From a bacterium (GTDB lineage Bacteria > UBP6 > JAFGXH01), in the NCBI GenBank assembly GCA_027064085.1, contig JAMOQH010000179.1, forward strand, positions 1-64,000: a stretch of 64,000 bases of DNA. Direction: 5' to 3'. Below, in pieces: positions 3,138-56,775 of this stretch (its first letter is position 1; the number at the start of each line of letters is the position of its first letter). Under the pieces are notes generated by a model. The model saw only the letters and a list, made by a program, of their open reading frames with translations. It had not been told where the DNA came from and did no database searches. A program made the position numbers and the translations under genes.

Positions 3138-6100
3138 CTAATATATTTTAATTGGTGTTATTGTATGTTTAATTAAATCATATTTTAAAATTGATGGTCT
3201 ATGTTGATTTTTTTGTTTAACATATTTAATTTTATAATTATTTAATTTATCTTTTTCTTTAAAATTTTGTAAGTCTCTTAATATTTTTTTAGCATTTATA
3301 CTTTCTTTAGTTTTATTTAAACTTCTAATACTTGATTTTACTGTAGTTGTTTTTTGGGTTATTGGGTCAAAACCTAAAGTAATAGAATTTGATTTAAGAA
3401 AATACCCTGTACCACTATGAAAATAAAAAGTAAATAATATTTCATTTATCATTGCTTTAGTTCTATTTCCCTCATAAGAAAATTCTTGTTCTAAACCGTA
3501 ATAAAGTTTTATATCTCCTAAAAATAAATCATCAAGTAAATGTTCTTCTTTTATAATTTCAATAATATCATAAGCTTTTGAGTATAAATCAACAATCAAA
3601 CTTGAATCAAGTTTTTTTTCAGGAATTTCAGGATTAAAGTTATTATTATTTATCTCTATTTCAATATTATTATTATTATCTGTAAAATAATACAAATTAT
3701 TTAATTTTTTATTTGCCTTAATGCTTATATTTTCATAATCAGATATAATATTTGCAATATATTCGTTTATATTGTTATCATTTTCATTAAATACAGGCCA
3801 ATTCTCTTCTGGTCTTGGAGTAACTTGAGTATTAGATGTTGCAGTATTTCCTATTATATCAGAAAATGCATATCCTCTGCTACCATTAGCATGGCTATAA
3901 TAGCAAAAACCATATTCTTTTAAATATTTTTTAGAGGGGTCTTTTTTAGGCCCTGTTTTAATCCCAAACCAATAATCTTTATGCATATATTCAGAACAGC
4001 TTCCGGGAGAAATAAAGCCTGCATTTCTTTCAGGATCATCACTATACATTAAAAACACCCAAGTTTTTCCTATAGGAAGTCTATCATAGATTAATCCTAT
4101 CCAAAATCTCATACCTGTATTATAAAAAGGACCATCATCCCAAAATGAATCTTTATAAAAACCACCAATTCCATGTAATCCGTTTGCAAATAATTCTCTA
4201 TAACCCCATATCGCTTCTTGGTCACTAGTTCCTGATTTTCCTAAACTCTGGCAACTTCCTGTTAAAAACCATTCTAAATCAGAATCGCCCAGTGAACCTC
4301 CAAATAGAGGATCTTGGAAGTTTATTCCAAAAGAGCCAGTATAATTAGGATTTGCCCCAGTGTTAGTTGTCCAAGAACCGTGAGAATCTTGTAAAATTAA
4401 ATCAGCCCCATCTAGGGTTTCTGCTTGTTTTTTATTTTCATATATTAAATCAGGAATAACCTCATTATCTCCTACTCCTGGATAAAAATATTCTCTTGTT
4501 ACTCCATTTTCACCATAAGGAGAGCTTTCGAAAAAACCCCAAGCGTATTCAGGAGTGGGGGTATTATTTGAACGAATTGCTTTAAATGTTGGTTTATACG
4601 GAATATTTTTACCTAGTATATTAATTTTATTAAGAATATCTTTATTTGAATAATAATCATTTCTGTCTAAAGTAATTTTATTATTGGAATTATTTATAAA
4701 TTCAGGATTAAGGTTCCCAACTATTTTAATAGATTTTATCTTATCTCCAGTGATAAGATTATCAGATAAATCTTCATCATCTTGCCAAATAACTTCTCTT
4801 TTACCTTTAAAGTTTTCTTTTGTAAATAATTCAATGTATCCTTTTAGTCCTTTTCCTTTTTCTAAATACTCAGAATGCCCATAATATTGAATAAATTTAT
4901 CGTAATTTTTAGGATTTATAAATAAAGCTCCCAATTGGTAATAGTGATTTAACCAATCGTTGTTTAATTCTAGTTCTGATGATGCTGTATCTGTATTTTC
5001 ATCTAAATAAATACACTCATTTCTTATAATTTCTGGATTTTCACCACTCATCATATCAGTGGGGCAATAATAAGCTTCCCAACCTTCATTGATTTTAATT
5101 TTTAAATTGCTGGATAGTGCATCATATTCGCAGTAATTCAAATGATTACTATTTCTTTCAGAGTTACAGGCATCAGGAAAGATTAATTGCTCATCTTTTT
5201 TTATAGATGAATAAAAATGTCTAGCAGGATAATCTTTACAAATTCCTTTTTTGCAATTATCTCCATTGCAGTATTCTTGATTATATAAATTTTCTCCATT
5301 AGATAAATCACAGTATTGGTCATAATCACACTGAGCATTGCTTAAGCATCCAGATTCACAATGATTATGATAAGTATTACAGATATAACCACTAGGACAA
5401 GTCTCATCTTGTTCGTTAATATTAGTATATTGGGTACAATAAATTTCTTTTCTACAATACCAATCATTGCCATTATTTTGACAACTATATCCCTGTTCAC
5501 AAATATCGCTATTGTATCCATAACATAACTTTCTATGAATTCTGTGTGTTTTATTGTCGCATTCATAAACTTCAGTATTGTATTGGCTGTTACAACTTTT
5601 TCCATTTAAATGAGATATTTCAACTCCACCATTTTCAATATCATAAGTTTTAAATTTATTATTGGTTTTAATATCAAGCCTAATTGATTTATATCCAAAT
5701 TTAGCTTTATTTACTTTATTTGGTACTATAAAACCCATTATTGTATTATAATATGAACCACTACCATTATCTATTGTTTTTTCATCAAAAATAAATGAAG
5801 TTGCATCAGTATTTGTTAAGTATCTGTCATTTTTAATATTGTAACTAGGCTCTATTGAATTAGTATTTAAATAAGTTCTGATATTATTACTGCTTGTTTC
5901 TATAGACCTAACTCTTAATATTGAATTATTTTGTAAGCCATTTATACTATAAATAATATGATTACCATTAAAGTTAGGCTCGTCATAAGTAATAACGTAT
6001 TCTTTATTTGCATAAAACTCATTAAAGGTATCTGTATTTAATTTAGCTTGAACAATAATTTTTTTTATTAATCCCATACCATGCCAACCGCTATTTTCTT

Positions 6101-7384
6101 GATATTTACATTCTTTTATATCATCGTTTTCATGTTTACATAAAAAAGCTTCCCAACCATCATTTAAATAATATAAAGCATGTTCTAGTTTATTACCAAA
6201 TTCACTATTGCTTACACAAATGTTATCTCCTGGAATATAAATTTTCCCTTTACTACAGTTACTCCATTCAGGGTTAAAGTTGTCATTAAAAGTGATATGA
6301 TTATTTATGTTATAGCAGTTATCATTATTATTACATAAATAAACTCCATTTCCGTTACTTTCATTTGAAGTCCTAGTAACTAATTTTACATATAATATAC
6401 TAGTCATATCAATACCATCGGGTAATTCAAATAAATAATCATCTGGGTTAGGATTTTGCTCTGCAATACTAGCCCATGGGTCAAAAGTAATTTCTTCTCC
6501 ATTAAAATTAATTAAAATTAATTTATAACTAATTTCAAACCTAATTTTTTTTAAGTTTAAGTTACTTACTATCCTATCTTCTCCTGCAATATAATAAGTT
6601 TCATTCATATAAGGTTCTGTTATTAACTCAAATGAATGTTCATCTTCAGTATAAAGTTTAAGATATTTCTTATTTGGATATGTTATTTTAAATTCTTCAT
6701 AATTACTAGGGGAAACTTTAATATACATTCCATATATATTTAAGTTATTTTTAGTTGTATCCCAGTTGTTGGCAGAAAAACAATTACAAACAGGATAGTA
6801 GGGGCTATCACAAATACATGCATCCCTTCCTTTGCTTAACTTAAATGATTTAATTATTCTATCTTCTGAATCAAGTTGATTATCTATCCAAAAATAAGCA
6901 GTTGAGTTACTATTTAGAAGAAATTGACAAAAACCATTTAAATTATTTTTACTACAAATTAATAACCCCAAATCGTTAGTAATGTTTTCAGGATTATTAC
7001 TCATACACAAAAGATGATTATTAAGTAGAGTATCATTACAACTTAATTTATAAATACTGTAAAAATTTTCATAGCCTACTGGTACAAGCCCATCACATGG
7101 GTCAAAGTTTTCACAACTTTTAGCTTGACAAGTATCTCCTTCTCTAATATACCCGTCTAGGCAGTCTCCACAACTCATAATACCATTTTGATAGTTGCAA
7201 GTACGATTCATAACCGTGCAACGGTTATTTGTTAAAAAACAGGGATTTAATATTTGCTGATTTGTAATGCTTAAATCCCCCCCCCCGCAATATGTATTCC
7301 ATCTCTATAGTTACTTAAATTAAAATGATAATTATTTAATTGTGCAACCAAAGAAAATGAAAATAATAATAATAATAACTTCAT
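3138..7384 (-). CDS. Large secreted EGF-like / beta-gamma-crystallin-like protein; as sequenced the 5' end (ATG 7384) is out of frame with the 1357-aa body because of a G10 tract
   Basis: ORF 3138..7211 plus upstream ATG at 7384 with SD GGAG and signal peptide MKLLLLLFSFSLVAQ; frames join if the G10 tract at 7277-7286 gains 1 or loses 2 nt; joined reading gives EGF-like CFLTNNRCTVMNRTCNYQNGIMSCGDCLDGY. Confidence 0.75.
7277..7286 (-). repeat. Mononucleotide tract (G)10 on coding strand, candidate phase-variation tract
   Basis: Direct reading: ttaaatCCCCCCCCCCgcaa in a very AT-rich context. Confidence 0.9.
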
Positions 7385-7528
7385 CTTTACTCCAAAATTA
7401 ATTTCAATAAGTTATATTACACTTAGATTTGAAAAATATCAAATAAATATTAAATATTTTTATAATGTTAAATAAATAAATTTATTTTTTACAAATAATA
7501 TAAATCCCACTGCTGTGGGTGGAGAGAA

Positions 7529-8047
7529 TTAATATTTAAACAAAGATAGAATGCCATAGTTTATAGCAAGATAATTCCACACTATTCCAATTAAAATCAT
7601 AGGTCCATAAGGAAGATATATCCTTTCTGCTTCCTTTTTTTTAAATTCAGAACGCTTAAAGAACATATTAAAAGAATTTGTTAGTGTTTTAAGCATTTGT
7701 CCTTTCCAAATTAAATATATAACAACAAAAAATCCACCTGCTATTCCTATATACATAACGGAAGTTAGAGTAAATAACCAACCTTTTAATGCTCCAACTG
7801 CTCCTAGTAATTTAACATCACCTCCACCAAGGCCAAATATCATAAATATTGCAACTCCAACAACCCAACCTATAGCTGAATTTTTTATTCCTGCAAATTG
7901 AAAAAACACAGCATTTAAAGCTAAACCGATAATAGCAACAGGAATAGTTAATTTATCATATATTTTTCTTGTTTTTAAATCTGTGATTACTGCAATAATT
8001 AGAGTTACGAACAATATAGTATCTATAGTAAGTTCTTTATAAGTCAT
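7529..8047 (-). CDS. Prepilin peptidase, A24 family (CpaA/TadV-like)
   Basis: Polytopic membrane protein with D-LKTRKI and GLGGGDVKLLGA motifs. Confidence 0.85.
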   Translation of the reverse strand: MTYKELTIDTILFVTLIIAVITDLKTRKIYDKLTIPVAIIGLALNAVFFQFAGIKNSAIGWVVGVAIFMIFGLGGGDVKLLGAVGALKGWLFTLTSVMYIGIAGGFFVVIYLIWKGQMLKTLTNSFNMFFKRSEFKKKEAERIYLPYGPMILIGIVWNYLAINYGILSLFKY

Positions 8048-9553: not shown

Positions 9554-9595
9554 GTTACAAGTTACAAGTTACAAGTTACAAGTTACAAGTTACAA
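9554..9595 (+). repeat. Heptanucleotide tandem repeat (GTTACAA)x6
   Basis: Direct reading: aat(gttacaa)x6gcagg. Confidence 0.95.
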
Positions 9596-9736
9596 GCAGG
9601 TGTATATTGCAGTGTATCTCAACGAGACAAAAAGCTTACTTTTATTTCTCTAAGAAAACGATCTCCTTCTTTAGGTAATATGTTAAAAGAATTAACGGTA
9701 AATTTAAATTTTAACTATTATAAAAAAGGAGAAAAA

Positions 9737-21817: not shown

Positions 21818-21973
21818 GTTCTTGTAAATATTAAATAAATAAATCTTATAATTAATAGAATTGGTATAAATGAAATATTTATATTTTATTTATTTTGGAG
21901 AAAAATAAAAAAAAACTAAATAATTAAAAACAAAAATCCGATTGAGCTAATATGAATTTTCTTGAATAATAAT

Positions 21974-55296: not shown

Positions 55297-56775
55297 ATGA
55301 AACTATCTATAAATGTAATACTCTTAATTTTTTTTTTTATAGGAATATCATCTTGTAATGAAAAGGAAAACCCTCCTAATGATACTTGTTCACCAAGCAA
55401 TTTAAATGGTAAATGTGAAGATAATAAAACTTGTGTAAGAGGTAGCTGTATTTATGAATGCAATGATAATCTAGAGTGTCCTAAAAATTATCATTGTGAT
55501 AATAATGTCTGTTATGATACAACCAAACTATGTTCGCAAAATAATTATTTTGGTACTTGCTCTGAAAATAAAACCTGTGTAAAGGGTGTTTGCAGGAATT
55601 TAAATCCATGTTCTGCCTTAAATACAAATGGAATTTGTTCATCTGAAGATAGAATTTGTTATAATGGTATATGTGTTAATAATAATAATGAGTGTAAGCC
55701 TTGGAACACAAAGGGAGATTGTCCTGAAAATTATTATTGTGATAATGGAAATTGTGTTCATAATAAAGTAGAATACCCTTGTTCATTACAATATCCCGAT
55801 GGGAACTGTTCTTCTAAATTTGATTCATGTATCAATGGGATTTGTATGGATACTGAATATGCATGTGGTAAAAGTGAAATCGGAATAGATTGTCCAGCAG
55901 GTCAGTCGTGTAGTTTAGGGAATTGTATTTTTGACAATGCTAAGCTTTGTTCTGTTGATTATCCCTTTGGTTATTGTGAAAATAGTAGAAAAAAGTGTTA
56001 CGATGGCGTTTGTTATGATTTAAAAAACTCATGTTCTACTATTGATAAATTTGGAAAATGTGAAGCAAATGAAATTTGTGATGATGGACTTTGTGTTCCT
56101 GTTTTAGTTGAATGCAATGAAACAGTTTCTTGTCCTGATACTAATAGGCAAGAATGTAAAGAGAATAAATGTATTGATAAGCCTATTTTTTGTGAAGATG
56201 GTGCTTTAAATGGATTGTGTCCTGAGGGTAAAGCATGTGTTGATTCTGAATGTAAAGATATAACAGAAGATTGTTCTAGTAGTAATTTAACAGGAAAATG
56301 CAATGCGTTAAATTTAAAATGTATAAATGGAACTTGCCTTGATAGTTCACAAGAAGATATTTGCTCATCTTTTAATTTAAGTGGTAATTGTCCAAGTGGA
56401 ATGATATGCAATAGTGGAATATGTACGGGTAATGTTAGTCAGGGAGAAATTGGTAATCCATGTGTTATTGATGCTCAATGTAAATCAGAACTATTATGTG
56501 AAAAAACATTTCTAGATGGTTATTGTACAAAAGAATGTTCAGAAAGTACAGATTGTGATGAAAATTCATTGTGTTATATGCTTTCTGCTACCAAAGGATA
56601 TTGTATGGCTAAATGTTCTGTCAATATACCGAATAGTTGTTCAAGAAATAATTTAGAAGATTATATTTGTTATCCTATAAATGGTAATGATGGTATTTGT
56701 TTATATGATTGCAAATATAATAATTGTTTTGAAACAAATAAAACTTGTAATCCTGTAACTGGAATTTGTCAATAA
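55297..56775 (+). CDS. Cys-rich repeat lipoprotein, same repeat class as 18821..21787
   Basis: Lipobox (FFFIGISSCNEK); tandem CSxxNxxGxCxxNxxCxxGxC repeats. Confidence 0.88.
   Translation: MKLSINVILLIFFFIGISSCNEKENPPNDTCSPSNLNGKCEDNKTCVRGSCIYECNDNLECPKNYHCDNNVCYDTTKLCSQNNYFGTCSENKTCVKGVCRNLNPCSALNTNGICSSEDRICYNGICVNNNNECKPWNTKGDCPENYYCDNGNCVHNKVEYPCSLQYPDGNCSSKFDSCINGICMDTEYACGKSEIGIDCPAGQSCSLGNCIFDNAKLCSVDYPFGYCENSRKKCYDGVCYDLKNSCSTIDKFGKCEANEICDDGLCVPVLVECNETVSCPDTNRQECKENKCIDKPIFCEDGALNGLCPEGKACVDSECKDITEDCSSSNLTGKCNALNLKCINGTCLDSSQEDICSSFNLSGNCPSGMICNSGICTGNVSQGEIGNPCVIDAQCKSELLCEKTFLDGYCTKECSESTDCDENSLCYMLSATKGYCMAKCSVNIPNSCSRNNLEDYICYPINGNDGICLYDCKYNNCFETNKTCNPVTGICQ

Follow-up and report, generated by a model that had tools for sequence, protein, structure and literature searches.

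A G10 tract at the frame break of a secreted-protein gene in an uncultured bacterium: a candidate slipped-strand switch

Most known examples of slipped-strand phase variation come from host-associated pathogens. In Campylobacter and Neisseria, whose poly-G contingency loci include the Campylobacter phasome and meningococcal hmbR/hpuA, a run of Gs sits early in the coding strand of an exported-protein gene, a change in its length toggles the reading frame, and in the OFF state a stop codon follows right after the tract. Dozens of tracts are present in these organisms, and their switching has been demonstrated. In Campylobacter, tracts of at least 8 Gs switch, with lengths peaking at 9 and 10 (PMC6321876). 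Here, we describe a gene from an uncultured bacterial lineage with the same arrangement, including a coding-strand G10, in a 64-kb stretch of DNA (“the window”, meaning the whole stretch analysed). The locus differs from those of Campylobacter and Neisseria in several respects: its genome has a single OFF coding tract, which is a candidate switch; the genome encodes MutS; and the gene is part of an operon with flanking direct repeats and an empty-site allele. A literature search, which was not exhaustive, found no published report for this lineage.

The gene and all features of its locus are on the minus strand. A Shine-Dalgarno-like GGAG (7390–7393, by direct reading) precedes ATG 7384, and in the assembly the 5′ portion of the gene (7271–7384) consists of the start, a signal peptide, a linker, glycine codons and a TAA stop codon, with the 37-aa translation MKLLLLLFSFSLVAQLNNYHFNLSNYRDGIHIAGGGI. 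The frame breaks at a tract of exactly 10 Gs (7277–7286). A 1357-aa ORF (3138–7211) occupies a different frame, which stays open back through the tract to give 1382 aa. ATG 7384 and ATG 7211 are 173 nt apart, i.e., 2 mod 3. When tract length was varied in silico, 8, 11 or 14 Gs yielded a single ORF of 1414, 1415 or 1416 aa, respectively, and 6, 7, 9, 10, 12 or 13 Gs led to a stop after 36–53 aa. The earlier note had read the start, the stop after ten Gs, the second frame and the 3n+2 spacing in the same way; our reading adds one residue (I) before the TAA and a third joining length, 14, to the 8 and 11 given there.

At 26% GC, the chance of 1357 stop-free codons is ~1e-53, and no second lesion was found in them. 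A real gene almost certainly carries a frame break at 3138–7384, and the lack of any stop over 1357 codons points to an OFF state that is recent or reversible. ATG 7211 was rejected as an internal start, since the signal peptide and two Cys would be lost. Farther upstream are promoter-like hexamers (7414–7442), which are weak and not above chance, and a terminator-like hairpin (7506–7523) that is 3′ of the preceding prepilin-peptidase-like gene. A poly-G contingency locus is expected, among other things, to have at least 8 Gs within a coding region, a start and body that are joined by a 1- or 2-G change in length, and an otherwise intact body encoding a real protein; these three features were found here.

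An orthologue from the sister genus (G001; record JAFGXH01, MAG ZodW_Metabat.349) provides the clearest view of the unbroken gene. It is a single intact ORF that aligns to the window body (P0001) across 787 columns at 31% identity and across 471 columns at 26%. Its N-terminus (MRKVFAFLSFFLTGNIMLYADNIPVGDLIPVESVQTNTINPVGGVLNPC...) is a signal peptide followed by PVGGVLNPC, and its first Cys is residue 49; in the window protein, the first Cys would be residue 49 with 11 Gs and 48 with 8 Gs. Because signal peptide and body form one ORF in the orthologue, with the same first-Cys position, the tract is the exact point at which the window gene loses its frame. At the tract site, the orthologue has only GGTGGGG. 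The next gene in both genomes encodes a related Cys-rich lipoprotein (E 3e-7). Together, the intact orthologue, the first-Cys position and the shared neighbor bear out the proposal that the signal peptide and the giant ORF belong to one gene.

In a scan of genome contigs, P0001 alone as the query gave no matches; the alignment as the query recovered the G001 record and two matches confined to the Cys-rich module, which are not homologues. The body (3138–7286) begins with a Cys-rich, EGF-like segment and contains a DUF6345 (PF19872) region at 3960–4427, with DSHG and GSC motifs (His969 and Cys1012 of P0001), that scores 28.3 bits, over the curated cut-off of 26.9. H969-G970 and C1012 are invariant in the G001 orthologue, and members from G007, G009 and G011 retain SGHG and (A/S)C (by eye). 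These other members differ from the window protein in having mostly a signal peptide and a LamG rather than an EGF-like N-terminus, and no tract; the homologue on G009:C19 seems to be N-terminally truncated. A His-Gly and Cys dyad following hydrophobic strands, as in clan CD, can be seen by eye in the DUF6345 part, a hint that it may be a clan CD-like cysteine peptidase. AlphaFold models of residues 891–1382, made from one or two input sequences, had a pLDDT of ~30, too low to interpret, and a profile search for a relative in the PDB gave no significant match (best E 0.63). The product of 3138–7384 is best explained as a predicted secreted protein of ~1415 aa with a signal peptide, an EGF-like Cys-rich start and a DUF6345 region. 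The label “surface-type” in the earlier note fits the signal peptide and the Cys-rich start; a surface anchor is not detectable.

How unusual is the tract? The window has no other G/C run longer than 5, and shuffles predict 0.09 occurrences of G8 in it. In the 3.65-Mb draft genome, runs of at least 6, 7, 8, 9 and 10 Gs number 135, 35, 13, 8 and 2 (derived from overlapping match counts), which is close to a geometric tail, and extrapolating the decay predicts about 0.6–2.6 runs of at least 10. The expectation that G10 would be unlikely by chance in an AT-rich genome thus holds within the window and only modestly genome-wide. For the window the tract is unusual, and for the genome a run of this length is unremarkable; what stands out is that it lies at the only frame break. 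Inspection of the reading frame at all 35 runs of at least 7 Gs found every coding run other than the window G10 in an open frame (~18 distinct G7, six G8–G9 and one G12), with the noncoding runs being intergenic, at start sites or in tRNA. The window G10 is therefore the only gene-breaking run among the coding tracts of at least 7 Gs examined in the assembly. Because the other coding G8–G9 tracts are all in frame, there is no visible abundance of switched genes in this genome. The G12, on contig C175 (G000, locus L074), was rejected as a second case in this genome, since it is in frame and the contig may be foreign; it lies in a parallel-beta-helix-like exported protein, and the contig, which may be a contaminant, has a GC content of 0.33 and T9SS-like C-terminal tails.

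Homopolymers of 10 are error-prone, so the break could lie in the consensus sequence, with a G dropped by the assembler or through PCR stutter, a true majority length of 11 (or 8), and an intact gene. It is in keeping with this that 11 Gs would place the first Cys exactly where the orthologue has it. Against it are the other homopolymers in the assembly: the coding G7–G9 tracts, the G12 on C175, and the A/T runs of 8–11 within window ORFs are all in frame. General inaccuracy of the assembly was rejected on the basis of the ~18 coding G7 tracts and the many A/T runs. In addition, several contig ends share overlaps of exactly 127 bp, and we read the assembly as a k=127 short-read graph, which speaks against long-read homopolymer error; the consensus should then report the majority tract length. 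We consider a consensus artefact to be quite improbable. One of the in-frame A/T runs, a T11 (55328–55338), lies in the lipoprotein signal peptide of a 492-aa Cys-rich ORF (55297–56775).

The gene could also be read as it stands, if G10 caused RNA polymerase to slip, or ribosomes to shift by −1, so that some full-length protein was made. By frame arithmetic, a −1 shift on the tract does restore the frame. However, no convincing frameshift stimulator was found downstream of G10: the hairpin ~48 nt 3′ of the tract is weak (z −1.67) and too far away for a usual −1 stimulator. The G001 orthologue has no need of recoding. Recoding is therefore a highly improbable account of the locus.

The gene is the first of three in its operon. 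Genes 2 (P0002, 1471–3126) and 3 (P0003, 118–1467) both encode Cys-rich lipoproteins, with a relative of gene 2 being the gene that follows the G001 orthologue. A 25-bp direct repeat, TATTTATTTAACATTATAAAAATAT, flanks the operon upstream (7454–7478) and downstream (75–99), with a repeat-to-repeat distance of 7379 bp that spans the three genes. A DNA search with the region upstream of the gene matched the end of another contig of the same assembly, C6 (locus L155), over 99 identical bp (7454–7552). Past the 25-bp repeat, C6 runs straight into the groES-groEL upstream region, i.e., it is an empty site, with the neighboring prepilin-peptidase-like gene linked directly to groES, and its groES side is identical over 99 bp to positions 1–99, where the window contig ends and the filled site has its far edge. 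The filled site has one more copy of the repeat than the empty site, as is also the case for other accessory islands flanked by short direct repeats; the window operon is unlike them in that its three genes do not include an integrase or transposase.

These junctions suggest that the operon is probably present in some cells and absent from others that coexist in the sample, as a 7,379-bp polymorphism. Alternatively, all cells may have the operon, with C6 resulting from chimeric reads or a graph error at the repeat. The two shared stretches are 99 bp, not 127, so the contigs are dead ends of the graph, which counts in favor of an artefact. On the other hand, the 25-bp repeat is far below k, the joined flank is precise, and the genome has only three copies of the repeat, located exactly at the three junctions. 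The longest match shared by Markov-simulated pairs of these regions was 17 bp. An artefactual empty site is therefore unlikely.

Other genomes of the phylum offer precedents for poly-G tracts in exported proteins. LRR lipoproteins of G014, G010 and G019 (loci L088–L092, L141, L146 and L149) include 11 copies with G9–14 at one site, 3 of them ON and 8 OFF, and paralogues that have no G run are mostly full length. This family is a strong candidate for a phase-variable multigene family. It resembles the window gene in having G9–14 within the coding region of an exported protein, with the family mixed ON and OFF; it differs in being multigene, in having the tract ~55 codons past the lipobox, in belonging to genomes of 55% GC, and in encoding an unrelated protein. 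Another case is on G013:C150 (minus strand, locus L163), where a secreted-protein gene that combines EGF-like with LRR-like segments carries a G10 within its signal-peptide sequence and is OFF; with 9 or 12 Gs, at least 698 aa would lie in one open frame.

Several other repeats were seen. In G015 (L165 and L167), G11–12 runs lie directly 5′ of two lipoprotein start codons; with a G8 in the window genome (G000:C51, L003), these are 0–5 nt before start codons of lipoproteins or exported proteins, and they may tune expression. A ~50-G run at G010:C147:24055-24104 is probably a sequencing artefact. The window genome has only two (GTTACAA)n arrays, one in the window (9554–9596) and one on G000:C140 (about 21922–21970; L094). 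Both come directly after AGAGAAAAA(A)TG, roughly 180–200 nt upstream of a secreted-protein gene; the unit length is 7, which is not a multiple of 3.

We propose, leaning only slightly in its favor, that G10, which lies in the linker past the signal peptide, is a reversible slipped-strand switching locus. Polymerase slippage at the tract during replication would add or remove a G and so move the frame. Only lengths of 2 mod 3 would link the signal peptide to the body, with the gene ON at 8, 11 and 14 Gs and OFF at other lengths. The majority allele of the assembly would be an OFF allele, and OFF cells would make the 37-aa peptide. If the two 25-bp repeats recombined, the operon would be lost, giving a second path to OFF that runs in one direction only. 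The slippage rate, a return to ON and a benefit are the parts of this model that we infer. Evidence for switching comes from the intact orthologue, the stop-free body, the tract's position as the sole out-of-frame coding run of at least 7 Gs, and the precedents in the phylum; counting against it are homologues without a tract, in-frame G8–G9 tracts elsewhere, the presence of MutS and the near-geometric tail. The earlier suggestion of a phase-variable gene caught OFF therefore holds as far as the break is at the tract and the tract length is in the Campylobacter switching range; no second tract length was observed (the sister-genus homologue has no tract), and no homologue carries one.

The same observations could describe a dying accessory gene, with G10 being a fixed or drifting frameshift, the operon on its way to being lost, the empty site an end stage, and no return to ON. 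The empty site does coexist with the operon in the same assembly, and weak selection on the gene would account for the deletion allele equally well. No G run longer than 5 was found at the fetched loci of homologues in the phylum, which makes the tract private to the window genome and led us to reject the idea that DUF6345 genes have it in common; none of the other coding G tracts examined in the genome is OFF. Decay does not readily explain 1357 codons with no further lesion, a break exactly at the only long G run in the window, or the same architecture, likewise OFF, in G013. We regard a dying gene as somewhat unlikely, and the window locus as a credible slipped-strand contingency locus in an accessory operon, as read from its sequence.

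More broadly, and tentatively, poly-G slippage may be a general switch of EGF/LRR-type secreted proteins and lipoproteins in this phylum, a possibility to which we give less credence than to switching at the window locus. Here, it would be layered on a losable operon, such that ON, OFF and deleted cells could occur in one population. The traces of filled and empty sites in the assembly make the polymorphism directly testable in existing reads. If the proposal is correct, a poly-G switch in an uncultured lineage, together with the parallel cases in the phylum, would point to a use of such switches outside hosts as well, where their role might be, e.g., against phage or predators.
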